Positions 3,599-49,201 of a stretch of 64,000 nt of DNA are shown here, piece after piece. The notes under the pieces were generated by a model. That model searched no databases. It was given only the letters and a program-made list of their open reading frames with translations, and was not told where the DNA came from. The position numbers were made by a program, and so were the translations under genes. The stretch comes from Bacteroidota bacterium. Lineage in GTDB: Bacteria > Bacteroidota > Ignavibacteria > Palsa-1295. Location of the stretch: positions 1,439,963 through 1,503,962 of the forward strand of contig JAFDZW010000005.1 of assembly GCA_018266755.1 (NCBI GenBank). The letters are read 5' to 3'. Position 1 is the stretch's first letter. The number at the start of each line of letters is the position of its first letter.

Positions 3599-6160
3599 AT
3601 GTACTGTGTAGGTGTTTCAGGATGCGTGTCAAGACGAGGCCTGGCCACGACGATCCTGTTCACCCTTCTGCTCGGTGCGAATGCATTCGGTCAGTTGTCG
3701 CGCGAACTCCCGAGACCACCGAGAATCGCATTGGTACTCTCCGGCGGAGGTGCACGCGGGCTCGCACACATCGGCGTTCTCGAAATCCTCGACTCGGCAA
3801 ATATCCCCATCGACCTCATTGTCGGCACGAGCATGGGATCGGTTGTCGGCGGACTCTATGCCGCCGGGTATTCGACACATGAACTCGAACGCATTACAAC
3901 GGAAACGAACTGGTCCGATATCCTCTCGCTCGACGACGACTCTCACCGATCCGAACGCTTACCGGGACAGAAGGACGAAAAGACATCGTTGCTTGCCCTT
4001 CGCTTCAACGGTTTTTTTAATCCTGTATTGCCGGTAGCGATCTCCAGTGGTCAGCGCCTGACGATGCTGTTGAACTCGCTGGTGCTTTCATCACCGTACG
4101 GCACGCGTGACGATTTTCTTCATGACCTCAGAGTCCCCTTTATTGCACTTGCAACCGATATTGTCACCGGTACCCGCCGTATGCTCACCAGCGGTGACCT
4201 GACGTCCGCGCTTCGCGCCAGCGCGACGCTTCCGCTTCGCTTCAGCCCGCTCGTGACCGATTCCGCGGTCTTCGTCGATGGAGGATTGCTTGCGAACGTC
4301 CCGATCGATATTGCGCGCGACTCTGCGCATGCGACCTACGTGATCGCATCGAACACCACCGCCGAGCTGCGACAACGTAACGAACTCAATACACCCTGGG
4401 ACGTTGCAGATCAGGTTATCACACTCATGATGCGTCGTGAGAACGCAGCACAACTCAAACGTGCGGACGTCATTATCACCCCCGAACTCGAGCACACACT
4501 CCCGGATAATTTTCTTAACGCGACCTATTACATCGAGCTTGGTCGTGTAGCCGCACGTGCCGCGTTGCCCAAGCTTCGCGCACTGCTCGCATCCTCCGAG
4601 ACCGCAGAGCCGGTCAGTGCGCCGGATTCCGAGATCATTCCTGTTCTGCGTGAAATCCGATTGCATGGCATTAACGGCTCAACGCGCGACTCGCTGCAAC
4701 TCCTTGTCAACCGGGTTCGCGGCAACCGCATCGGTTGGCATAGTCTCGATGCAATGATCCTTGCGCCGGCAACGGAATTCCTTCATCGCAAGGGATATTC
4801 ACTTGCTCGGGTCGACAGTGCCGTGATTGTTTCCCCGAAATCCCGAGTCGATCTGTATCTCGACCCGGGGTATATTTCCGAGATACGCATTAACGGACTG
4901 CATACGATCAAGCCGATCGTCGTGCAGAATCAACTGCCGTTCGCTGCAGGCGATATCCTGCAACGCCGCGATTGCGAACGAGCGCTCAAGAACCTGACGG
5001 CAACCGGGTTCTTCTCGTTCGCGAACATGTCCTTCAGCGAAGTTGGCAATGGCAGACCAATTGTGACGATGCGTATGGATACTCCGATCGTCTCCACGCG
5101 CTCTGTAACAGTACCGACCGGCACAGCCATCGTCATGCTCAATCTCGAAGAACGGGCAACACAAGTGCTCCGACTTGGCGGCCTGGCCGATAATGAATTC
5201 GGGACGCAGTTCTCGATGGAATATGCAAACGAAAATCTGCTTGGCCTCGGAGGCGGGTTCTCGCTCAAAGGAGGCCTCGGACCGCTCTCGCGCTATGCCG
5301 AACTGAGCATCGGCGGCGGCCCGCCGCTCTTTCGCGTCGAAGCGGCTGCATATTCCACTCTTCGAGACATTACCGTCTACACTTTTCACGACGACATCCC
5401 CCACGGCACGTTTACCAGCAGCGCCGACGATGTCGTGCGCGAGATCCGCGACTTCGGTGCCAGCGCGCATGTCAGCTTGAACATCGGGCGCGATGCCTCG
5501 TTTGCAGGCGAATATCATATCGAACGGCAGCGGAGCTATTCGTTACACACTCGCGAGTATGTGTCGCCCGCACAACTGGTCGCCGGACTTCGTGGCATTG
5601 TAACCTACGATAGCCGTGACGATGAAGACTATCCCCACGTAGGCGAATTTGTCGAAGGATTCTATGAAATCGGCGGGCATTTCCTCGGGGGCGAGGTAGG
5701 ATACACCAAGTTTGGAATCACACTCGAAGAAGCGCTGCCGCTCTCGCGGTTGCACAACGTACTCTTGAAAGCGTCGCTCGGCGTTGCCGATCGCACGACG
5801 CCGAGACAAGATCAATTCAGTCTCGGTGGAATTACGTCGTTCTTCGGGCTCAACGAATACGAACTTCGCGGCAAACAGTATGTAACCGGAAGTGTGGGCT
5901 ATCAAATCGCTATTCCGAATTCATTATTATTTCCGACGTTCGTCTTGTTCCGATATGACTTGGCGGGCACGTGGACCGAACCGACATCGATCAAATTTCA
6001 GTCGTTCATCCACGGGGTCGGCGGGGAGATCGGCTTCAAGACGCCGATCGGACTCGCACGGTTCGGCATCGGTGAGAACTTCCGGTTCGCTCAGAGCATG
6101 ACGAACCCGCTGCTACTGAATACCCCGCGCTTCTACTTTTCTATCGGAAGCAATCTGTAA
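3599..6160 (+). CDS. patatin-like phospholipase fused to a POTRA/BamA-type outer-membrane barrel
   Basis: 853 residues. A signal peptide (LATTILFTLLLGANAFGQ) is followed by a patatin domain (about 42-330): oxyanion GGGARG at 49-54, nucleophile Ser78 in GTSMG, and catalytic Asp227 in VDGG. About 340-500 resembles POTRA repeats (YISEIRINGLHTIKPIVVQNQLPF), and the remainder is a 16-strand-type BamA/Omp85 barrel ending in FYFSIGSNL. This PlpD/FplA architecture, a type Vd autotransporter, places a lipid acyl hydrolase at the cell surface or outer leaflet. All catalytic residues are present. The SDR gene starts 8 bases downstream, so cotranscription is likely. Confidence 0.92.
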   Translation: MYCVGVSGCVSRRGLATTILFTLLLGANAFGQLSRELPRPPRIALVLSGGGARGLAHIGVLEILDSANIPIDLIVGTSMGSVVGGLYAAGYSTHELERITTETNWSDILSLDDDSHRSERLPGQKDEKTSLLALRFNGFFNPVLPVAISSGQRLTMLLNSLVLSSPYGTRDDFLHDLRVPFIALATDIVTGTRRMLTSGDLTSALRASATLPLRFSPLVTDSAVFVDGGLLANVPIDIARDSAHATYVIASNTTAELRQRNELNTPWDVADQVITLMMRRENAAQLKRADVIITPELEHTLPDNFLNATYYIELGRVAARAALPKLRALLASSETAEPVSAPDSEIIPVLREIRLHGINGSTRDSLQLLVNRVRGNRIGWHSLDAMILAPATEFLHRKGYSLARVDSAVIVSPKSRVDLYLDPGYISEIRINGLHTIKPIVVQNQLPFAAGDILQRRDCERALKNLTATGFFSFANMSFSEVGNGRPIVTMRMDTPIVSTRSVTVPTGTAIVMLNLEERATQVLRLGGLADNEFGTQFSMEYANENLLGLGGGFSLKGGLGPLSRYAELSIGGGPPLFRVEAAAYSTLRDITVYTFHDDIPHGTFTSSADDVVREIRDFGASAHVSLNIGRDASFAGEYHIERQRSYSLHTREYVSPAQLVAGLRGIVTYDSRDDEDYPHVGEFVEGFYEIGGHFLGGEVGYTKFGITLEEALPLSRLHNVLLKASLGVADRTTPRQDQFSLGGITSFFGLNEYELRGKQYVTGSVGYQIAIPNSLLFPTFVLFRYDLAGTWTEPTSIKFQSFIHGVGGEIGFKTPIGLARFGIGENFRFAQSMTNPLLLNTPRFYFSIGSNL

Positions 6161-6168
6161 GTACGAGT

Positions 6169-6882
6169 ATGAACATCGTCATTACCGGTGCATCGAAAGG
6201 AATCGGCCTTGCTGTAACCGAGCGATTCGCTCGTGATACCACCCGCACACATACATTCATGTTATGTGCGCGCAATGGCTCGGAGTTAGAGCGAGCCCAT
6301 GCTCAGCTCATTGAGCGGTTTCCCACACACCGGTTCATTACCGAAACATGCGACGTCTCGAATGAGCAAGATGTAGAACGGTTTGCCAACCACTGCAGCG
6401 ACCTCGGAACGACCGACCTTCTGGTTCACAATGCGGGCTTTGGGTTGTTCAAACAGGTCACGGATCTTTCGCTTGCCGAATTCAAGTCTGTTCTCGATAC
6501 AAATCTGCGCGGTGTCTTTCTCCTGACACGAGCGTTATTGCCACCGATGCGGGCCGCCAAAACGGGGACGATCGTAGCGATCTCTTCGCTGGCAGGCAAA
6601 GCCGGTTTTGCCGGGGGCGCTGCGTATTGCGCTTCAAAGTTCGGGGTTCGCGGATTCATGCAGAATCTGTTCCTGGAAGTTCGGTCCGATAATATTCGCT
6701 GCGTCACGATCTGCCCGGGCAGCGTGGATACGGCATTCTTTGCAACAATTGAAAACCCCGGAGGATCGGTTCGTATGCTTGCTGCCACCGACGTGGCCGA
6801 ATCCGTCTGGTTTGCCGCCAACCTCCCGGCCGGCGCAACCGTTTCCGAGATCGAAATCCGCCCTACCAACCCAAAAGGATAG
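6169..6882 (+). CDS. short-chain dehydrogenase/reductase
   Basis: 237 residues, classical SDR. TGASKGIG (residues 6-13) is the cofactor loop, CDVSNEQDV the nucleotide-specificity region, HNAGFG the NAG motif, and the catalytic set is Ser in ISSLAG with YCASK (Tyr and Lys). The C-terminus (SEIEIRPTNPKG) resembles 3-oxoacyl-ACP reductase-like and sepiapterin-reductase-like SDRs. The substrate is not determinable. It follows the patatin-barrel gene by 8 bases, so a role near lipid metabolism is possible but only inferred. Confidence 0.88.
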   Translation: MNIVITGASKGIGLAVTERFARDTTRTHTFMLCARNGSELERAHAQLIERFPTHRFITETCDVSNEQDVERFANHCSDLGTTDLLVHNAGFGLFKQVTDLSLAEFKSVLDTNLRGVFLLTRALLPPMRAAKTGTIVAISSLAGKAGFAGGAAYCASKFGVRGFMQNLFLEVRSDNIRCVTICPGSVDTAFFATIENPGGSVRMLAATDVAESVWFAANLPAGATVSEIEIRPTNPKG

Positions 6883-7103
6883 ATTTTCTTGGGAGCAAAA
6901 GAATTCACCGACAGTGGTGTGTAACAATCCACTGGGCGCTAAGTTGGTATTTTCAGTAACGACAACTGCCCCCTCATTCGTACGGCACGCAGGACGGTGG
7001 TTCTGCGCGATTGCCCGACACGAATGTCTTCAGGTTCATAGGTCGACCATGTCGCCGGCATCTGCGCACGGGCGAGGGGGCACGCGTTCATCATACATCG
7101 GAA

Positions 7104-7682
7104 ATGAACATTATTGTGACTCCCCGGTTGCTGCTGCGTCCGTTCGAACCAGCAGACTTGCCCGACGTGGCGCGACTCTTCGCCGATCCCGAAGTGATGC
7201 GCTTCATCCGTGCGCCACGAACGTTAGTCGAATCGGAAGCGAAATTCCGGTCCATGGTTGCGGATTTCACTCGTGACGGCTTCGGCATGTTCGCCGTCAT
7301 CGATCGCCGTGAAAAGGCGTTTATTGGCCGTTGTGGGCTCCAACCCCTGCCTGGGACCGGGCTCTATGAACTAGGCTATACGTTTTTCCCCAATGCATGG
7401 GGGAAAGGATACGCGACGGAAGCATCCAAAGCCGTACTGCACCGTGCATTCGAGGAATGGGGGCTCGACGAGGTTGTTGCCGTTGCCGATCGCGAGCATA
7501 TCCGCTCGATTCGGGTTATGGAAAAACTCGGTATGCAATTTGAACGAAATGACGTGTTTTACGAGAAAGAATGTGTCCTGTACTCCATCGTGAAAAAAAA
7601 ACTAATCCAGCCTTCGACGCGCCCCTTTAGTAGCCCCTTCATACCATCATCACAATCCGGGAGGAATATCTTCGTAAAATAA
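7104..7682 (+). CDS. GNAT-family N-acetyltransferase (RimJ/RimL-like), tail possibly frameshifted
   Basis: From the ATG at 7104 the protein reads MNIIVTPRLLLRPFEPADL, the usual start of RimJ/RimL-type acetyltransferases; the frame extends upstream to 7011 but those 31 residues are atypical. Acetyl-CoA-binding motif A is GYTFFPNAWGKGYATEASKAVL, followed by VADREHIRSIRVMEKLGM. A run of nine A at 7593-7601 lies where the family usually ends. One A fewer would give ...SIVKKN and a stop, whereas the frame as given adds about 25 low-complexity residues. Either a homopolymer sequencing error or transcript slippage would explain this. Confidence 0.8.
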   Translation: MNIIVTPRLLLRPFEPADLPDVARLFADPEVMRFIRAPRTLVESEAKFRSMVADFTRDGFGMFAVIDRREKAFIGRCGLQPLPGTGLYELGYTFFPNAWGKGYATEASKAVLHRAFEEWGLDEVVAVADREHIRSIRVMEKLGMQFERNDVFYEKECVLYSIVKKKLIQPSTRPFSSPFIPSSQSGRNIFVK

Positions 7683-7795
7683 GCCAAAATCCTAATTCTG
7701 AGAAGAGTCTTCCACCCTTCGGGAGGTCCGTTTTTCGACGTGGAATTGTAACAATTCGACGATTCGGTTGTTTTTAAAGTGCAGACTATGCCCCC

Positions 7796-10700
7796 ATGCT
7801 CCTGCACCTCGACCTGGCCCTTAAATCTAGGTATCGGGGACCGTGGATTCAAGCTAATTCGTCGAAGATCGTGCACCTGACCAGACCGTATTCGCGCGCA
7901 CGGCGCATCTCCATATTTGCCGCCGTCTTATTGCTGTCCTGCTACGCAGTGCAGATCGGTGCGCAACCAAAATGGCGCATCTCCACGCCTCGCGATACGG
8001 TCAATGTTGACGCCAAAGGCAATGTAGCCAACGGGAAGATCCAGCTCTCAGCCGGCACCGATTTCTACCTGCAGATCAGCGGCACCTACAGTTTCTGGCA
8101 GTCTCAGCCTTCGAGCGGTGTCGATGCCGACTATACCTACAAAGTACCGAGTTGGAATATCTTCTCCCCGCTCCAAAATCCCCCGACATATAACTCCTCC
8201 CTCTTCGATTGGGGACTCTGGATCGACAATACAGTCACCCGCGGATACTATAAGAGTTTTTCCCCGTCCGACGCCTACCAAAGTTCGCACGTCTATACGT
8301 TGCGTATTCCGAGCCAAGCGAACAGACTTGCATTTCGCATCAAAGCGCCCTCGCAGGCATATTATAACAGTGCCTCCGGCGGACTCACGATCCGAAGTGC
8401 CCGCTGGACTGCCGGTATTGCCATCGAGAGCACCGTGCTTGATTTCGGCTCCGTGCTCGTCGGGCAGCCATCGATCAAGATCGACTCGATCGCCAGCTAC
8501 GGCATCGATCCGCTGCAAGTCGATAGCGTCGTCGTTCGTGCCATCAGTCCTGCGAACAATTCCGTCTTTACAGTCGTATCCGAAAAGGGCAACAAGTTCA
8601 CGCTGCCGAACGAATCGGCAAATGCATTTCGCGTGACGGCACAGCCGGATACCACCGGGCAGATCGTTAGCGAACTGCTTGTGTATTCCCATAACGCCGA
8701 TGCAAACAATCGCATCGTCCGCGTCAACCTGCGAGTCACCGGCGTAGCGCCAAAACTGGGTGTCGGCCCCGACTCGATCAATTTCGGCCTCGTTCGCATC
8801 GGAACGAACCCATTCGGCAAGGCATACGTCGCGAACACCGGCAGCAGCGTATTGAAGGTGACAAGTGCAACCCTCCTTCCTGCCCCTCCTCCTACAGACA
8901 CCGGAGTGTTCAGCGTCGATCCTAAGAAAGTGATCCCCTTCGATGTATTTAGTGGCGACATCGGTCAGATCAAGGTCTATTTCAATCCAAAAAAACGCGA
9001 GCATTACCACGGCAAACTGTATGTCAAAGGCATCGGCGTACCGTCCGATTCCGTCGACCTTCAGGGTGACGGTGCAGAACCTATCCCCCAGCTTTCTGCG
9101 CGAACCTTGGATTATGGTCTGGTTTATAAGGACGATGATTCGACCCAGCAGCTGACATTGCATAACGCCGGCGACTGGCCCTGTACCGTGGACAGCGCAT
9201 ATATCACCGGGACTGCAAAGGCCGCATATTCATTCGCTCCGTCGGACGTGTCGTTCTTTCTTCGATCGGATTCAACCCGTGGCTTCGATATCACGCTGCA
9301 TGCAGGCGCCGGCGTACAAGGATATTTATACGACGCATACTTTGTACTGTTGTACGACGACAATACAAAAGATTCGGTTCATCTCACCGGCATCGAAAAA
9401 GAGCCACTGCTGTCGTATGGCTCGAAGGAGTTTGATTTCGGGAAGGTAAAAGTCGGAGCTTCGTCGACGAAGCAAGTCACTACGGTTCACAATACGAGCG
9501 CCAACACAACGGCGTCGATATGGGACCAGTATGTCAGTCCCATCGATCAATATTTCTCACAAGCGGTATTATTGCCAAAAACGATCGCTCCGAATGCGAC
9601 CCTCCCGCTGATGGCAACGTTCGCTCCGCTCGGACCGGGCGCCTTTCAGGCATACATCGTCACCAACACGGCGGGGAAACGGGATTCTATTCACTTGCTT
9701 GGTATCGGAGCCGTTGCAAAAGCCATCTTCAATCCGAGCCCAATGGCATACGGCATCGTGAAGTCGGATTCGGCAGATACACTCATCTCGATTCTCCATG
9801 ATTCCGGCGATTATCCGCTCAACGTGATTCGTATCGAAATCACCGGCACCGATGCAAAAGATTTTTCCGTACTGTACCAAACGAACGGAAAGACGCCGGT
9901 GCTGCCCTATACGATCCAGGAAGATACTACCATGCCGATCGAAGTACGATTCGTGACGCATGCCCGTACCGGCTTGGTACACCGTGCAACACTCTGTGTG
10001 TACTATGACGACTCGACAAGCGACTGCATTCCGCTCGAAGCGATCGAGGAGGCACAATATCTGCAGTTCGGCCAGACATCCGTTGACTTCGGAAAGGTTC
10101 GTGTCAAGACTACCGCACTGCAAAATGCGATCTTCAAAAATTATTCCGGCAAACCACTCTCGGTCGATTCGGTATCCGTTACCGGCAACGCCTTCCGCGT
10201 CTTGAATCAACTCGGACCAGTAGCATCGCGCGATAGCGGCGCCGTCGGCGTTACCTTCACGCCGGCTACACGAGGACCGTACGTCGGCTACCTCACCGGA
10301 CGTGGCGGCGACTTCCGTACCGATTCCATCCAGGTTCGTGGCACCGGTGTAGCTCCAATCCCAGCATTTTTGCCTGATACCGTGATCGATTTCGGCATCG
10401 TCCAACTCGGAGCGCCGAATTCGAAACCCCTGTCGCTGCTGAACATCGGCGACTTTAAGTTACACGCAACCGATATCCGCATCATCGGTGATCCGTATGG
10501 CGAGTTCTCCTATGCGAAGCTGAGCGGCTTCGATCCGACTCAGGATACGGTCGACGTCAATGCGTCGCCGTCTCAATATCTGGTGACGTTCACCCCGTCG
10601 CAGCCGCTTGTGTTTCATACGGCGCGTTTGCTCTTTACCTTCGACGACAGTTCGCAACGCATTATTGTCCTCAAAGGCTACGACGAATCTCCGTATCTGG

Positions 10701-42983: not shown

Positions 42984-43046
42984 AGTGCGCCTCTTAACAA
43001 TGACGTTCGGCCTATTGTTCTATTCACAAACTGCCCCAAAAAACCG

Positions 43047-43370
43047 TCATTCTGAGCGAAGCGAAGAATCCCTTTCGGCTTGCCCGGATCCCCAATCCAG
43101 ACTCAGATCCTTCCACCCGGGATTCATCCCTTCGATCAGGGCGATCTTCTTCGAACGCAGCCACCCTTTCAATTGCGTTTCCCTTGCAATAGCTTGACTC
43201 GGCGTCGAGAATAGTTCGAAGTATACCAACTTGTCGATATTGTACCGTTTGGTGAAGCCTTCATTCAGCTTGTTCTTATGCTCATATAATCGACGGTCGA
43301 GATCATTCGTCATCCCGATGTAGAGACGCTTCGAGTTGCTGGATAGAATGTAGACAACGTAGTTCTCCAT
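43047..43370 (-). CDS. GIY-YIG nuclease domain protein (UPF0213-like)
   Basis: 107 residues. YVVYILSSNSKRLYIGMTND has the GIY-YIG core (here VYI...YIG), with the conserved Arg in DLDRRLYEHK and the metal-binding Glu in AIARETQLKGW. Single-domain members are small and mostly of unknown role. The last seven residues plus the stop (RDSSLRSE-stop) are encoded by a TCATTCTGAGC repeat arm, and an inverted arm lies 26 bases before the start, so the gene is boxed by the repeats. The family end is normally variable, so the protein is probably functional. Confidence 0.85.
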   Translation of the reverse strand: MENYVVYILSSNSKRLYIGMTNDLDRRLYEHKNKLNEGFTKRYNIDKLVYFELFSTPSQAIARETQLKGWLRSKKIALIEGMNPGWKDLSLDWGSGQAERDSSLRSE

Positions 43371-43422
43371 ACTTGGGCGTTCTGGTGATCCTTAAGGGAT
43401 TCTTCGCTTCGCTCAGAATGAC
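43047..43422. repeat. inverted TCATTCTGAGC repeat arms boxing the GIY-YIG gene
   Basis: Left arm 43047-43072 (TCATTCTGAGCGAAGCGAAG...) and right arm 43396-43422 (...CGCTTCGCTCAGAATGAC) in opposite orientation, perfectly complementary over about 25 bases. The arms provide the stop codons of both the GIY-YIG gene (43047) and tag (43413). Confidence 0.85.
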
Positions 43423-44015
43423 GTGCTGCTTCTGAGTTCCTTATACCGAAAGCACCCTACCAGATGGTCATTGACCATGCCGGTGGCTTGCATGTGGGCG
43501 TACATGATCGTCGAGCCGACGAACTTGAAGCCACGGGAGATCATATCCTTGCTCATCGCATCGGATTCGTTTGTTCGAGCCGGCAGCGTCCCTTGCTCCT
43601 TCCAGCGGTTGTGAATGACCTGGCCGTCGGTGAATTGCCAGATGTACTTGTCGAACGAACCGAACTCCCCCTGCACTTCGAGGAATGCCTTCGCATTCGT
43701 CACGGCCGAGCGGACTTTCAGATTGTTGCGGACGATCGACGGATCCTGCAATATTTTTTCGATTCGTGCCTCGGTGAACCGCGCTACCTTCTCGGGATCG
43801 AAATTGGAAAAGGCCTTGCGATACCCTTCGCGCTTGCGTAGGATCGTGATCCACGACAACCCGGCTTGCGCTCCCTCGAGTACAAGAAATTCAAAGAGCT
43901 TCCTATCGTCGTGTACCGGCACACCCCATTCGTGGTCATGGTAGTGAACATAGAGCGGATCGGTCCCGCACCAAAGGCAGCGTGTTGGTTCTGTTGTCAT
44001 TGTCGTCGTTGTCAT
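43413..44015 (-). CDS. tag: DNA-3-methyladenine glycosylase I
   Basis: 200 residues. TRCLWCGTDPLYVHYHDHEWGVPVHDDRKLFEFLVLEGAQAGLSWITIL matches the Tag family: Cys13 and His26 (in YHDHEWG) with His and Cys of NDHLVGCF near the end form the zinc snap, and the Glu/Trp of EGAQAGLSW line the base pocket. It excises 3-methyladenine from alkylated DNA. The final residues STSF plus stop are read from a palindromic repeat arm, so the tail after the zinc snap is not original, but all functional residues precede it. Confidence 0.94.
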   Translation of the reverse strand: MTTTTMTTEPTRCLWCGTDPLYVHYHDHEWGVPVHDDRKLFEFLVLEGAQAGLSWITILRKREGYRKAFSNFDPEKVARFTEARIEKILQDPSIVRNNLKVRSAVTNAKAFLEVQGEFGSFDKYIWQFTDGQVIHNRWKEQGTLPARTNESDAMSKDMISRGFKFVGSTIMYAHMQATGMVNDHLVGCFRYKELRSSTSF

Positions 44016-44059
44016 ACTATTGTGGTGCCCCTCAATTAGAGCTGAAAGATACGAACTCA

Positions 44060-44200
44060 GTAGGACGGACTCTTAGTCCGTCCTCAGTGGCACGGACTCT
44101 CAGTCCGTGCTCTTTCGGCATCCACGAACATTCGGCCCTGCCCCGAACCCCGCCCACGAATAAATTCGTGGGCTACGCATGTGGCCGTCCTGCCGGACTC
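44060..44200. repeat. left copy of a ~141-bp inverted repeat bounding the accessory block
   Basis: It contains two GGACGGACT...AGTCCGTCC-type palindromes (44063-44083 and 44092-44109), CCACGAATAAATTCGTGG and GGCCGTCCTGCCGGACTC. The reverse complement recurs at 48903-49044 with roughly ten percent differences and small gaps. Between the copies lie the RecA-fold-like gene, the DGQHR operon and the haemoglobin gene. Confidence 0.85.
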
Positions 44201-44234
44201 AACACGGAGAAGGCGCAATGCCCTTACCCAACAC

Positions 44235-44332
44235 GTCATTCTGAGGTCGCCGCCGCGACCGAAGAATCCCTTTCGGTTTGCCTCGACCTTCCGTACACTC
44301 CCAAAGGGATTCTTCGCGTTGCTCAGAATGAC
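44235..44332. repeat. TCATTCTGAGC-family palindromic repeat, variant left arm
   Basis: In the left arm the usual GAGCGAAGCGAAG core is replaced by GAGGTCGCCGCCGCGACCGA, which forms its own small hairpin (GGTCGC/GCGACC). The right arm (ending GCTCAGAATGAC at 44332) is standard. Confidence 0.8.
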
Positions 44333-44358
44333 AGGCTTATAAACTTGCATGGCACCCA

Positions 44359-44434: not shown

Positions 44435-45271
44435 TTATGCTGCAAGAGCTTCACTATACACACTCCGCCTTACGTGCTCCTCATCGTACTGATCTTCGTA
44501 CTCATGCTCGCTCTCATCGGTGCCCTCATCGTCCGCACCGTCATCATCGAGATGCACGCCAACACCGCGACGGTAGCTTTCGCCATACCCGTCGCCGTCA
44601 TCGACGTACTTCCCGACATACTTCTCGCGCTCGGCGCTCTTTTCGTCGCTATCGTCGAGTCGCTTCGCGTCCTCGCCCGCACGATCGAGCATGACTAAGC
44701 GGTACGTGTCTCCCCTCAGTTGTTCTTCGCGCGTGAAGCGCACTACTCTGGCGACGATCCCCATCAGTTTCCCCATCCACCCGCGTTCGTAGCGGCCTGC
44801 CGTCACTTGGCGCGAACCCAACTGCTGCGCAAAGACGATCACCGTCACGTTCATTTCCGCTGCCCACCGCAGCAGCAGGAATAGCAACCGTTCGCGCGTG
44901 CGCGCATCCTTCGCCGCGAACTCCCACGAGTTGATGACGACCGTCCCGATGTTGAGCCTCGGGTCCTCCAGCAGCGCCATGATCGCCTGATGATCGCTCG
45001 GGACCTCGCCGACGCGCGAATGCAGCAGCGCGAACGTCTTGCGCGCCTGACCCACGAACTCCGGGCCCACCGCCTCGGCGCACGCCTCGTCGAATTTGTA
45101 GCTCGACTGAAACGCATTGATGAACAGCACCGCCCGCTCCGGCTGCGCCTTCGCGATCTCATAGGCCACCCGAACGCTCGTCACCGCGTTCTCGCCCACC
45201 GTATCGCCCAAACAAAGATTGATCTCATGCGGGACGATGTCCCCCTTGCGAATTATGTTCTGCGTAGTCAT
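44435..45271 (-). CDS. RecA-fold-like protein lacking a Walker A motif, with acidic tail
   Basis: 278 residues, no family recognised with certainty. Residues 1-200 read like a RecA/RadA/KaiC core: a beta strand and helix (AVLFINAFQSSYKFDEA), FALLHSRVGEVPSDHQAIMALLEDPRLNIGTVVINSWEFA in place of Walker B, then RERLLFLLLRWAAEMNVTVIVFAQQ resembling the strand ending in the sensor Gln. The P-loop position holds LGDTVGENAV, without GK[ST], so ATP binding is doubtful. Residues ~205-278 are very acidic, rich in Asp, Glu and Tyr, and probably disordered. It may be a non-catalytic partner for DNA or for another ATPase; this is speculative. A TAnnTTTG promoter element lies just upstream. Confidence 0.6.
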   Translation of the reverse strand: MTTQNIIRKGDIVPHEINLCLGDTVGENAVTSVRVAYEIAKAQPERAVLFINAFQSSYKFDEACAEAVGPEFVGQARKTFALLHSRVGEVPSDHQAIMALLEDPRLNIGTVVINSWEFAAKDARTRERLLFLLLRWAAEMNVTVIVFAQQLGSRQVTAGRYERGWMGKLMGIVARVVRFTREEQLRGDTYRLVMLDRAGEDAKRLDDSDEKSAEREKYVGKYVDDGDGYGESYRRGVGVHLDDDGADDEGTDESEHEYEDQYDEEHVRRSVYSEALAA

Positions 45272-45500: not shown

Positions 45501-45658
45501 TCCCCCACCCGTTGCGGGAGGGGGTTGGGGGGTGGGGCATTCATCTCTGCCCCGGCAGGGGCGATGTACTCCTAGCCCAGGGTGGAGGCCGAAGGCCGGA
45601 ACCCTGGGTAGATCACGGACTACCGGTGTGGAGGGTTGCCACCCCGCGAGCTAGTAGG
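45501..45658. repeat. two adjoining GC-rich palindromic repeats
   Basis: 45501-45538 is a C-run/G-run palindrome around CCCGTTGCGGG. 45546-45658 contains TGCCCCGGCAGGGGC, CCCAGGGT...ACCCTGGG around GGCCGAAGGCC, and a GC-rich end CTAGTAGG. The last bases supply the stop codon (45651) of the all-alpha partner gene. Such elements look like the short dispersed repeats elsewhere in the window but no second copy is present here. Confidence 0.7.
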
Positions 45659-46685
45659 TTTTTGACATAACAAGCAAGTTGGCACTCGGTTGAGACATGC
45701 TTGACTTGTATTTCGACCTCTTCAGCTCCCACCTTGAGTCGATGAGACGCCGATCAAGAAGCTCCGAATAGAGTTGGCGGGTGAGCAGAAATAGCGTATT
45801 TGCGAAAGCGTACAGAAACCCGACATGGCTTTCGATAGATGTCTTTTTCACTGGTGAACATCCGACCTCGGCCGCAGTAATAGTAGCCAATAATTCAGCC
45901 ATAGTCGCAGCACGCCAGTTCGTAGTGAGCTTTCGAACATTCACCAATGACTTTCGCTCAACCTGTCGGTAAATATACCCCGGCCAATAGTTTGCACGAT
46001 TTCTAAGCTCGGATGGCCAACTGTAGTTGCCATACATGCTATGAAGAACCTTACTTGTCAAGAAATCGAGGATCCGTTTCTCCTCTTGATTTCCGGCCCC
46101 GGAATTCACGTTTACTGACTCAAGATATGAGAAGAGTGCGTTCCATACGGCGTCGTGAACTCTACCCATCGTTGATTTCTTAAGTAAATACTCCACTGTG
46201 CCGTCGCTCGGTGGAGTCAATCGCTTGAAATGATACGCACCCGCTCCCGCACTTTTGCTAGGTCCGCCGGTTACAAGGAGCGCCAAATCAGAAGCTTCGT
46301 TTTTGTTGACATAGGTAATCGGCGACCCAACAAGACGCAAGAGAGTCTGTGCGCAGTAGAACGAGAAGTAGTAGACGGTAACGATATTCCATGCGTCACT
46401 TCGTACACCCGACCCAGAGCTGAAGCCAAAGACTTCTTGAAGGTGCTCGAAGCACCCATTTGTTAGCAGTTCGACATCAACCAACAAGTGGCGAGCGAGC
46501 CCGACTGAATCAGCTGAGATAGAATAGCCTGATGAAGTGCCGGATCGTACAGTATAGCTTCCCTTTTTCGCCAGTAACCACTCCTTGAACCCCGAGCGTT
46601 CGTCAAGTCGCAAATGGCAGGCAGACGCGAAAGTGGTCAACAAGTCCTCGCGCATCTTAATGTAACTGGGGCCAATTGGGATCAT
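45651..46685 (-). CDS. all-alpha protein of unknown function, partner of the DGQHR protein
   Basis: 344 residues, mostly helical by composition; no family recognised. Residues 105-120 (YYFSFYCAQTLLRLVG) look like the first helices of HEPN domains, and ELRNRANYW at 226-234 weakly recalls HEPN active-site R-x4-6-H or its RNxAxY variants, but the His is absent. Its ATG overlaps the stop of the DGQHR gene by 4 bases (ATGA), a tight translational coupling that implies a joint function. The C-terminal Tyr and stop are read from a GC-rich repeat, so the end may have been trimmed by repeat insertion. Role in DNA modification or defence is inferred from its partner only. Confidence 0.6.
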   Translation of the reverse strand: MIPIGPSYIKMREDLLTTFASACHLRLDERSGFKEWLLAKKGSYTVRSGTSSGYSISADSVGLARHLLVDVELLTNGCFEHLQEVFGFSSGSGVRSDAWNIVTVYYFSFYCAQTLLRLVGSPITYVNKNEASDLALLVTGGPSKSAGAGAYHFKRLTPPSDGTVEYLLKKSTMGRVHDAVWNALFSYLESVNVNSGAGNQEEKRILDFLTSKVLHSMYGNYSWPSELRNRANYWPGYIYRQVERKSLVNVRKLTTNWRAATMAELLATITAAEVGCSPVKKTSIESHVGFLYAFANTLFLLTRQLYSELLDRRLIDSRWELKRSKYKSSMSQPSANLLVMSKTY

Positions 46686-47728
46686 ATCATGTCTTCGCTC
46701 ACCTCGAGTTGACCTGCGAGCGCACCGTGGAGCACTTTTAGTATGGGCCCCTTGCTCACGCTGGTCTTTCCTCCAGTCGGTACACTCTCCAAATCAATAT
46801 TTGAAATCGGTGCCAACACATCCTTCAAAGACGATTCCTTATAGTTCTTGTGTTTCTCTCGCGACGCTCTCAATACCTCTGGCAAGAACTCGCAGAATGC
46901 TTCAAAGTATGCTTGCTTTCTTAGCAACAAGGGATTCCTTAGAGTCTCCTCGACAGATCTGAAGTAATTCAAGAAAAGCACGAACTGCTTTTGCTTCCCC
47001 AACTGAATCACGACCTCATTCCCAAGCAACGCTTTGAAGGCTCTGTTGAAAGTCACCCTCGATATCCTACCCCGGGCTGATGTAAACGGGCTCAAATAGC
47101 CGACGAAAGGGGATCGTGCGTCCGCGTTGAAATCGTCGAAGAATTTACGTAGCGTTGACTCGTCCTCGGTTTCCTGTTGCGCAACCTGCTTGATGTCAAG
47201 AAGCAGCGCTGCAGGAACGCCACGCTGATTAGTATTAATGTCAATGAAGAGGCTAGCTTCCTCCTGCCTAGAAAGCCCCACATAGATAGCGACAGGGACT
47301 CGATGCTTCTTCTTGGTGAAACTGTACCCCCAAAGCCTATGCTGGCCGTCAAGAACAAGAAATCCTTTCTCGACTTTCTTGTAACGAACCGACTTGTTCT
47401 TCGAATCGTACTCGAACTCCGCTGATGGCTGCGCAGATAGCACAATGTTTGTTGGGATGGAGCCCCGCGAATCATCAAGGTATTTAGCGATGTCTCTGGC
47501 CCTCTCCTCGCTAAGGTTGCGTTGGAACCCTTCAATCGGGTCATCCTGACGCCTTGCCACGTAGCAGTACGGAAATATGCTCTCCACGGGCATCGTAGCA
47601 AAGTAGAACTTCTGCTTGTTCTGAATCAACTGAAGTGCCGGAAAGGAAAATCGAGAGCGTGGTTGTCGTGCATCTCTCGGAGTGGGCTCATCAATCTGAT
47701 CGGTACTGTTGCGAATGTGTTTTGGCAT
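46682..47728 (-). CDS. DGQHR-domain protein (DndB-like)
   Basis: 348 residues. FLVLDGQHRLWGYSF places the DGQHR motif at 127-131, and FIDINTNQRGVPAALLLDIK (161-180) is the second signature of the family. The N-terminal FYFATMPVESIFPYCYVARR and EERARDIAKYLDD (about 75-87) fit the ParB/DndB-like fold. DGQHR proteins include DndB, a negative regulator and accessory factor of DNA phosphorothioation, but no dndCDE, sspBCD or dpd genes lie nearby. Here it pairs only with the overlapping all-alpha gene downstream. It is transcribed from a likely TAnnTTTG promoter at 47849-47880. Codon use and lower GC than the ATP synthase genes suggest transfer. Confidence 0.85.
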   Translation of the reverse strand: MPKHIRNSTDQIDEPTPRDARQPRSRFSFPALQLIQNKQKFYFATMPVESIFPYCYVARRQDDPIEGFQRNLSEERARDIAKYLDDSRGSIPTNIVLSAQPSAEFEYDSKNKSVRYKKVEKGFLVLDGQHRLWGYSFTKKKHRVPVAIYVGLSRQEEASLFIDINTNQRGVPAALLLDIKQVAQQETEDESTLRKFFDDFNADARSPFVGYLSPFTSARGRISRVTFNRAFKALLGNEVVIQLGKQKQFVLFLNYFRSVEETLRNPLLLRKQAYFEAFCEFLPEVLRASREKHKNYKESSLKDVLAPISNIDLESVPTGGKTSVSKGPILKVLHGALAGQLEVSEDMI

Positions 47729-48081: not shown

Positions 48082-48492
48082 CTACTCCGTCATGCGGAAC
48101 ATCTCGGGCCGGTCGAGGCTCCGGTCTTCTTCGACGCGGTGTTGCATGACGGCGGCGATCTGCCGCGCCCGCGCAAGCGCGAAGTCGGCTTTGGGTCCGT
48201 CGAAGTGTTCGGCGATCGTTTGCTGCCAGAGCGCGAGCCAGCGCTCGAAGTGCGTGGGCAACAAGCGTTCGCGTTTGTCGAGCTCGAGGTGTTTGCGCAT
48301 CGGGTTGCGGCGGTAGGCGCCGGAGTTCAGGAGGATCGAACCCCAAAAGTCGTTCATGATCGGGATGTGCTCGTCCCACGAGAGCGCGACGACGTCGGTA
48401 AAGAGATAGCCGATGACGTCATCGACGACGACTTTTTTGTAGAACGCATCGACAAGCTCGGCGACGTCGGTTTGGGTCAGAATATCGTGCAT
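48082..48492 (-). CDS. group III truncated haemoglobin
   Basis: 136 residues from the ATG at 48492; the frame goes back to 48552 with a non-homologous start. VAELVDAFYKKVVVDDVIGYLFTD, SWDEHIPIMNDFWGSILLNSGAYRRNPMRKH and LLPTHFERWLALWQQTI match group III trHbs; His81 in PTHFERW is the probable proximal haem ligand. These proteins bind O2, NO or peroxide; the physiological role is mostly unknown. It sits inside the inverted-repeat-bounded block next to the HTH remnant, and may have come in with the accessory genes. Confidence 0.9.
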   Translation of the reverse strand: MHDILTQTDVAELVDAFYKKVVVDDVIGYLFTDVVALSWDEHIPIMNDFWGSILLNSGAYRRNPMRKHLELDKRERLLPTHFERWLALWQQTIAEHFDGPKADFALARARQIAAVMQHRVEEDRSLDRPEMFRMTE

Positions 48493-48599
48493 GGCAGTTC
48501 GTCCGCGCGCGCAGCGCGCAACGGCCAATGCTAAACAGTTGGGCGCCAACATATATTCATGGGGTGGGTGTGTTTGGTTTTTGAATGCTTATCACACCA

Positions 48600-49149
48600 G
48601 TCATTCTGAGCGAAGCGAAGAATCCCTTCAGGATTGCCTCAATAGTTCGTACAGACCGAAACGGGACGGACTGAGAGTCCGTCCTACTTCTTCGCCCCAA
48701 CACGTCATTCTGAGCAACGCGAAGAATCCCTTTCGGTTTGCCTCAATAGTTCGTACAGACCGAAACGGGGACGGACTGAGAGTCCGTCCTACTGGCTTGG
48801 GCATGCTGCGTTGCATGAAGGGATTCTTCGCGGAGTTTACACTGAGCACAGCGAATGTGCTCAGAATGACACGTGTGGGGGAGATTGCGGCTTCGCCGCA
48901 TTGAGTCCGGCAGGACGGCCACATGCGTAGCCCACGAATTCATTCGTGGGCGGAGGTTCGGGGCAGGACCGAATGTTTGTGGTTGCCGAAAGAGCACGGA
49001 CTAAGAGTCCGTGCCACCGGGGACGGACTGAGAGTCCGTCCTACTTCTTCGCCCCAACACGTCATTCTGAGCAACGCGAAGAATCCCTTTCGGTTTGCCT
49101 CGACCTTCCGTACACTCCTGAAGGGATTCTTCGCTTCGCTCAGAATGAC
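48600..49149. repeat. dense cluster of dispersed repeats between haemoglobin and atpD
   Basis: TCATTCTGAGC arms start at 48600, 48704 and 49070, with inverted arms ending near 48870 and 49149. GGACGGACTGAGAGTCCGTCC palindromes lie at 48664-48684, 48769-48789 and 49021-49041. An 82-base unit (TTCGTACAGACCGAAACGGG...) is repeated around 48647-48690 and 48751-48795. No gene was recognised in the 680 bases between 48552 and 49227. Confidence 0.85.
48903..49044. repeat. right copy of the ~141-bp inverted repeat bounding the accessory block
   Basis: Reverse complement of 44060-44200: GAGTCCGGCAGGACGGCC, CCACGAATTCATTCGTGG, GGTTCGGGGCAGGACCGAAT, AGCACGGACTAAGAGTCCGTG and a final GGACGGACT palindrome, with single-base differences and one small gap. 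Confidence 0.85.
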
Positions 49150-49173
49150 ACGTGTTGGGGAAGTTTTACCAAT

Positions 49174-49201
49174 AAAAAAGGCGGGTGGTGGCCCGCCTTT
49201 T
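49174..49201 (-). terminator. rho-independent terminator of atpD
   Basis: GGCGGG (49180-49185) pairs with CCCGCC (49192-49197), extended by AAAA/TTTT, and is followed on the minus strand by six T. It ends the atpD transcript 26 bases after the stop, separating it from atpC. Confidence 0.9.

Follow-up and report, generated by a model that had tools for sequence, protein, structure and literature searches.

One described arrangement close to the locus examined here is that of MAE_28990, a HEPN protein encoded in an operon with a ParB nuclease and a DNA methylase (Anantharaman 2013, PMC3710099). The histidine of the Rx4-6H motif is missing in AbiV and the AF0298-like HEPN proteins, for which a conserved histidine from the segment inserted after helix 2 and before helix 3 has been proposed as a substitute (PMC3710099). 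Among ParB/Srx-fold proteins, GmrS-type DUF262 proteins carry a DGQQR motif similar to DGQHR and were placed in this fold (PMC4619093), and binding of both ATP and GTP is reported for a DndB-like protein (PMC12704722).

Here, we analyzed a gene pair encoding a DGQHR-domain protein and a HEPN-like partner in a 64,000-nucleotide stretch of a Bacteroidota genome (assembly GCA_018266755.1, contig JAFDZW010000005.1), hereafter called the window. With the DndB/DGQHR family, the DGQHR protein shares the DGQHR, GFQR and FIDIN motifs, a predicted ParB/Srx fold and domain-level scores over the cut-off, but its scores come nowhere near the equivalog cut-offs set for DndB, DpdB and DGQHR_dnd_1, and a partner gene replaces the dndCDE or dpd genes. 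With SspE, GmrSD and BrxU (DUF262, DGQQR), it has in common the ParB/Srx NTPase-type domain, a DGQxR motif and a defense setting; in GmrSD-type proteins this domain is joined to an HNH nuclease, whereas here a separate HEPN-like protein is encoded. The MAE_28990 locus likewise has a HEPN gene beside ParB-fold and methylase genes, although MAE_28990 keeps the canonical Rx4-6H, which our partner lacks, and no statement assigns its ParB protein to the DGQHR family. HepT/MntA likewise consists of two coupled genes, one for a protein that handles nucleotides and the other for an RNase of the HEPN type; by contrast, the present pair has no MNT domain, appears to belong to a different HEPN branch and encodes larger proteins. 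No description of the DGQHR-partner pair was found in the literature searched, an absence that does not prove novelty.

Results

Two overlapping genes of probable horizontal origin

Both genes lie on the minus strand. The upstream gene (46682..47728) encodes the 348-aa DGQHR protein, modeled as a ParB/Srx fold, and the downstream gene (45651..46685) encodes the 344-aa HEPN-like partner. The DGQHR stop and the partner start share a four-base ATGA overlap (46682..46685), an arrangement of translational coupling. Both reading frames are intact at the positions given in an earlier note on this DNA, which had also correctly placed the DGQHR motif at residues 127-131 and FIDINTNQRGV at residues 161-171, and had rightly read YYFSFYCAQTLLRLVG and LRNRANYW in the partner. 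Its remark that dndCDE are missing here holds in that the pair has no dnd neighbor; a genome-wide search for DndD found none. The DGQHR gene is present in a single copy, and neither an R-M nor a dnd gene adjoins the pair in this genome.

Phylogenetic analysis grouped the window DGQHR protein with Nitrospira- or Nitrosospira-labeled proteins and with proteins from Limisphaerales (Verrucomicrobiota) MAGs, at 56-59% identity and with a support of 0.999. Within its own class, only 6 other genomes of 294 had any DGQHR match, all of them distant. The G+C content of the pair is 0.48-0.51, compared with 0.55-0.63 in the flanks. The tree placement outside the own class and the drop in G+C point to horizontal gain of the pair in this genome.

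Two further features had been ascribed to the pair, namely a block bounded by inverted repeats and a promoter of its own, and neither withstood scrutiny. The inverted repeats exist (44059-44149 and 48955-49045; 91 nt, 92%) and also enclose genes other than the pair, but we rejected them as element ends. They are copies of a dispersed repeat that occurs in the window at 43045-43423, 44059-44337 and 48559-49177, often as inverted pairs, and whose core, GCGAAGAATCCCTTTCGG, has 26 copies in the genome with at most one mismatch; the repeats are therefore no evidence of an element boundary. Promoter-like matches numbered 5, against 3.0 ± 1.9 in shuffled sequence. The flanking ORFs at 48082-48552 (-) and 44435-45271 (-) matched no Pfam family at 1e-5; the former, which may be a truncated haemoglobin, was not present in 12 further genomes belonging to the family.

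The DGQHR protein belongs to the DGQHR family and models as a ParB/Srx fold

The window protein scored 136.7 bits against the NCBIfam DGQHR domain (TIGR03187; cut-off 58.85) and 48.5 bits against Pfam DndB (PF14072; cut-off 29.1), scores over the cut-offs that argue against a chance family membership. The equivalog models were far from reached: DndB TIGR03233 gave 24.9 of the 328 bits demanded, DpdB NF041060 gave 52.8 of 300 and DGQHR_dnd_1 TIGR04172 gave 80.6 of 450. Across 44 aligned homologues, all five residues of the DGQHR motif (D127, G128, Q129, H130 and R131; codons at 47336..47350) were invariant, as were F161, D163, N165, Q168 and V171 of FIDINTNQRGV (47216..47248) and the Q69-R70 pair.

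The AF2 model of the protein (pLDDT 87.2) matched the ParB N-domain 5k5a (probability 0.99) and PadC 6ryk (1.0) in Foldseek, with E-values of only about 0.01, and more weakly SspE 6jiv (0.44) and BrxU 7p9k (0.21). The protein thus models as a ParB/Srx fold. Given these fold matches, the likeness to DGQQR and the ATP and GTP binding of a DndB-like protein, nucleotide-switched DNA binding would be the default expectation for the DGQHR protein. Neither window protein contains an HNH or REase domain (Pfam, NCBIfam and PADLOC) or an HTH family (Pfam).

The partner resembles HEPN proteins with an alternative histidine

No family model for the partner was found in Pfam, NCBIfam or PADLOC, the latter two having been run on the window protein, and a sequence search of the PDB yielded no family. 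Among 71 partners searched against PHROGs, one member each matched two unnamed families, and the only Pfam HEPN match was that of one partner to HepT-like at E=0.09. The partner family was aligned with 71 members (A3), and conservation was counted over 97 aligned partners.

An acidic residue at position 70 (D or E), W99, Y105, Y106, H177, R228 and Y233 are kept in 97/97 sequences, and R117, W181, N229 and N232 in at least 84%. The two tyrosines (codons at 46368..46373) lie in predicted HEPN helix 2, and H177 (46155..46157), the candidate alternative catalytic histidine, belongs to the insert that separates HEPN helix 2 from helix 3. The R228-N229-x-x-N232-Y233 stretch (45987..46004), with N229 in 90/97 and N232 in 82/97 partners, ends predicted HEPN helix 3. 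The canonical Rx4-6H motif is absent from the partner, in which R228-N-x-x-N-Y is without a histidine; instead, as in the AF0298/AbiV subtype, a conserved histidine precedes the arginine motif (both H177 and R228 in 97/97). The order YY ... H ... R-x3-[DNQ]-Y was observed in 93/97 partners and in 0/222 neighboring ORFs of similar size, and a short-spaced form of it in 32/34 YY-type HEPN proteins.

The AF2 model of the partner (pLDDT 88.7, pTM 0.91) comprises helices at 60-87, 97-118, 176-194 and 223-233 and a long helix at 284-313, with a strand-bearing insert following 97-118. The description of the partner as all-alpha is therefore right in that the model is mostly helical and inexact in that it has about five strands. 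The helix order is compatible with HEPN, and no HEPN was among the listed Foldseek matches. A Foldseek search of the whole model against PDB and BFVD returned no significant match, no HEPN and no known enzyme fold, so that an unrelated known enzyme, which the earlier note had named as an outcome that would sink the idea of a system, did not emerge.

In a profile-profile comparison with hhalign, the partner alignment matched a profile of 34 YY-type HEPN proteins (AF0298/COG1895-like, a few less typical members included) at P=1.3e-4 and 54% probability, and its core did so at P=6e-5 and 65%; the match spans mainly the helix 1-2 segment, and its probability is only 54-65%. The control profiles run against the whole partner (RYP-type HEPN, HepT, 23S IVP, MNT and AbiV) gave P values of 0.12 or worse, although RYP-type HEPN ORFs contaminate the MNT set. 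Once reversed, the partner alignment gave a P of 0.17 against the HEPN set. As a calibration, YY-type (COG1895-type) HEPN matched AbiV, both being accepted HEPN families, at P=1.1e-4, so that the partner-HEPN match equals a match between two accepted HEPN families.

With AF0298/COG1895-type HEPN proteins (PF05168), the partner thus has in common the YY of helix 2 and, as with AbiV too, an alternative histidine N-terminal to the basic motif and an R-x3-[DN]-Y that ends helix 3. It differs from the AF0298 type in being more than twice as long, with 47-76 residues from YY to the histidine, strands in the insert and extra N- and C-terminal helices, and in lying below any Pfam match. AF0298-type proteins are paired with MNT, whereas the partner here is paired with a DGQHR protein; AbiV gives no direct profile match to it. 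Judging from motif and profile, the partner is quite probably related to HEPN, and RNase activity would follow only by a further inference. The HEPN call, first offered as speculation, has accordingly gained from the motif order and the specific profile match but not from the fold search; since Foldseek finds no HEPN, it stays inferential.

The two genes form a conserved and jointly inherited unit

Used alone as a query, the window partner retrieved nothing from plasmids, phages, GTDB contigs, IMG/VR or the phylum's 394 other genomes; relatives were reached through the DGQHR protein only. Directly downstream of each of the nearest plasmid and phage DGQHR relatives, we found a gene for a hypothetical protein of 294-325 aa, and for most of these proteins similarity to one another and to the partner in the window is detectable. 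Querying with six aligned DGQHR proteins then yielded the 80 closest GTDB genome loci and 31 IMG/VR loci, chosen by the DGQHR protein only. Because 4 of the 80 genome loci stop at a contig end or close to one, 76 were left to be assessed. The partner lay beside the DGQHR gene in 71/76 of these, 70 with an intact gene and one frameshifted (L092). The system idea had been staked on such recurrence, and it came through.

The L092 copy, from Kosakonia arachidis (5983-7900), has frame changes in both genes, reflecting either decay or sequencing errors. Five loci have no partner (L038, L082, L068, L076 and L083). At two of these, L038 (5141-6987) and L082 (1195-3003), a divergent FRG-domain gene (PF08867) lies within 100 bases upstream of the DGQHR gene. 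Judging from these two loci, a single sensor may be able to work with more than one kind of effector, FRG being a possible alternative, which fits a sensor-effector reading of the pair.

Intergenic gaps ranged from -50 to +22 bases with a median of 0, start codons being assigned mechanically, and the exact -4 overlap was present in 28/96 pairs. Over 89 loci, the distance matrices of the DGQHR and partner proteins correlated at r=0.84, and none of 2000 shuffles exceeded 0.13, indicating that the pair is inherited jointly; physical interaction is compatible with this correlation, not proven by it. No natural DGQHR-partner fusion occurred among the loci examined. With the 71-partner profile, 3/395 genomes of the phylum were positive, the window genome included; of the other two, one has a DGQHR gene upstream (L249), and at the second (L247) the contig stops too soon for a call. 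Collectively, these data show that the pair is a conserved, closely spaced and jointly inherited unit that occurs in many bacterial phyla and has been transferred between phyla.

The pair is carried by phages and plasmids and occurs near modification genes

Ten P2-like loci from IMG/VR carry the pair between the Phage_GPA replication gene and the gpQ-type portal gene; Pfam was run on representatives and the others were assigned by sequence cluster, some contigs being near-identical. The P2-like prophage of E. coli TW01221 (L261:8670-16235) has the order portal, DGQHR, hypothetical protein, replication endonuclease, and its hypothetical protein matched the partner family profile at 1.4e-89. The pair (L261:11986-13935; WP_059336743.1 and WP_126851998.1) is the only sizeable cargo of this gpA-gpQ site, which otherwise holds one 50-aa ORF. 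One related DNA query found the TW01221 pair in 1/5,426 complete E. coli genomes. The P2 gpA-gpQ locus is a hotspot of anti-phage systems and the home of old and tin (PMC9122126, PMC9519451), and the pair therefore resides in a known defense hotspot.

Pf phage PfAC19 carries the pair adjoining its repressor gene. On plasmids, the pair lies between umuD and umuC in Providencia and adjoins a NotI-type R-M system in Acinetobacter, and it is also carried by B. glumae and Leptospira plasmids. In a single case, on a plasmid of Tritonibacter mobilis (L250:1276-4819), an intact partner was observed without a detected DGQHR gene, possibly a natural loss of one half; the ORFs directly before it are presumably IS21-like transposition genes.

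Near chromosomal pairs, we found methyltransferases of the N6/N4 (L015, L062), C5 (L019, L073) and D12 (L078) types, a NotI-type REase (L054) and HsdR (L043). Acinetobacter populi (L053:937-7939) has a complete dndBCDE, all four above the NCBIfam cut-offs, and directly after it another DGQHR gene with its partner; it thus has a true DndB plus the pair. Methyltransferase or R-M neighbors occur in a minority of loci, most pairs being without a modification operon; judged from the rarity of methyltransferases, our estimate is that they are probably enriched near the pair. In two Nitrospira-type loci, L015 (2058-10178) and L016, the pair lies between an N6/N4 methyltransferase gene and a UvrD-type helicase, and in L015 an endonuclease-domain gene precedes the methyltransferase gene; this arrangement is possibly a larger defense cluster. 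The suggestion of a minimal defense module is thus supported by location (P2 hotspot, Pf phage, R-M and dnd neighbors), while its repeat boundary and promoter fell away.

Discussion

Based on the coupling of the two genes, their gpA-gpQ, Pf, plasmid, R-M and dnd locations, the HEPN-like profile of the partner, the ParB/Srx fold of the DGQHR protein and the horizontal gain, we favor, with somewhat better than even confidence, the reading that the pair is a mobile two-gene anti-phage module composed of a nucleotide-switched DGQHR sensor and a HEPN-like RNase effector. Given its fold and the family it belongs to, the DGQHR protein may be a DNA-binding switch that binds a nucleotide of the ATP/GTP/CTP type. 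By analogy with HEPN proteins of the alternative-histidine type, the acidic residue 70, YY105-106, H177, R228, N229 and Y233 of the partner may form a putative metal-independent RNase site. The candidate active sites are intact.

In the mechanism that we propose, the DGQHR protein and the partner would form a complex that is held silent, in which the DGQHR protein would sense invading DNA or a modified or unmodified DNA state. Upon infection, a change in the nucleotide or DNA state of the DGQHR protein may release or activate the partner, which would cleave tRNA, rRNA or mRNA and thereby stop phage production. Where an R-M or dnd system lies next to it, the pair may serve as a backup.

The same two components could instead constitute a toxin-antitoxin (addiction) system, in which the HEPN-like partner is the toxin and the DGQHR protein the antitoxin, perhaps modifying or binding the toxin in a nucleotide-dependent way, like MntA on HepT, with phage defense a side effect or absent. 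Two coupled genes, one of them HEPN-like, on mobile elements and plasmids would suit such a system, and HEPN/MNT is a known toxin-antitoxin pair (PMC7641770). However, the two proteins are sizeable, at about 270-350 aa, and the Tritonibacter partner stays intact with no detectable DGQHR gene; the antitoxin-toxin gene order is common to both readings and by itself cannot separate them. We regard addiction as unlikely.

Modification-dependent restriction is, by a hair, less likely still. Here, the DGQHR protein would be a DNA-nicking or NTP-driven nuclease and the partner a non-catalytic subunit for specificity or nucleic-acid binding. A nuclease role would parallel that proposed for GmrS/SspE/BrxU-like ParB/Srx domains, and it draws on the weak Foldseek matches to SspE (6jiv, 0.44) and BrxU (7p9k, 0.21), on the resemblance of DGQHR to the DUF262 motif DGQQR (PMC4619093) and on the methyltransferase, R-M and dnd neighbors. 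Yet neither protein has an HNH or REase domain, and the acidic, H, R and Y residues that never vary in the partner look like a catalytic or ligand site rather than part of a bare scaffold. That the pair is a DndB-like repressor and a helper, tuning a linked modification system or the carrier element, is very improbable: repression of the dnd operon by DndB, in an ATP-dependent manner, has been described (PMC12704722), one pair follows dndBCDE and that of PfAC19 adjoins a repressor gene, but most pairs stand alone with no modification operon, the A. populi locus already has its own DndB, and neither window protein has an HTH family.

Returning to the anti-phage module, the pair is best called a two-gene HEPN-type conflict system, since ParB-fold, HEPN and methylase neighbors were noted together in 2013, in another HEPN family. 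A narrower proposal, which we put forward tentatively and hold to be rather doubtful, is a widespread class of abortive-infection systems in which a DGQHR nucleotide switch would read DNA modification and control an alternative-histidine HEPN RNase; such systems would be self-sufficient in phages and plasmids and would also provide a fail-safe to R-M and phosphorothioation systems.

DGQHR-domain proteins are common and mostly stand apart from dnd or dpd operons. Our analysis shows that the close relatives of one DGQHR clade mostly have one regular partner, for which there is no Pfam, NCBIfam or PADLOC model. Many annotations of a DGQHR domain-containing protein next to a hypothetical protein can thus be gathered into a single testable system, of which a copy exists in an E. 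coli prophage, and the alternative-histidine HEPN proposal becomes directly testable. If the abortive-infection reading is true, it would provide a function for many orphan DGQHR/DndB-like proteins of this clade.
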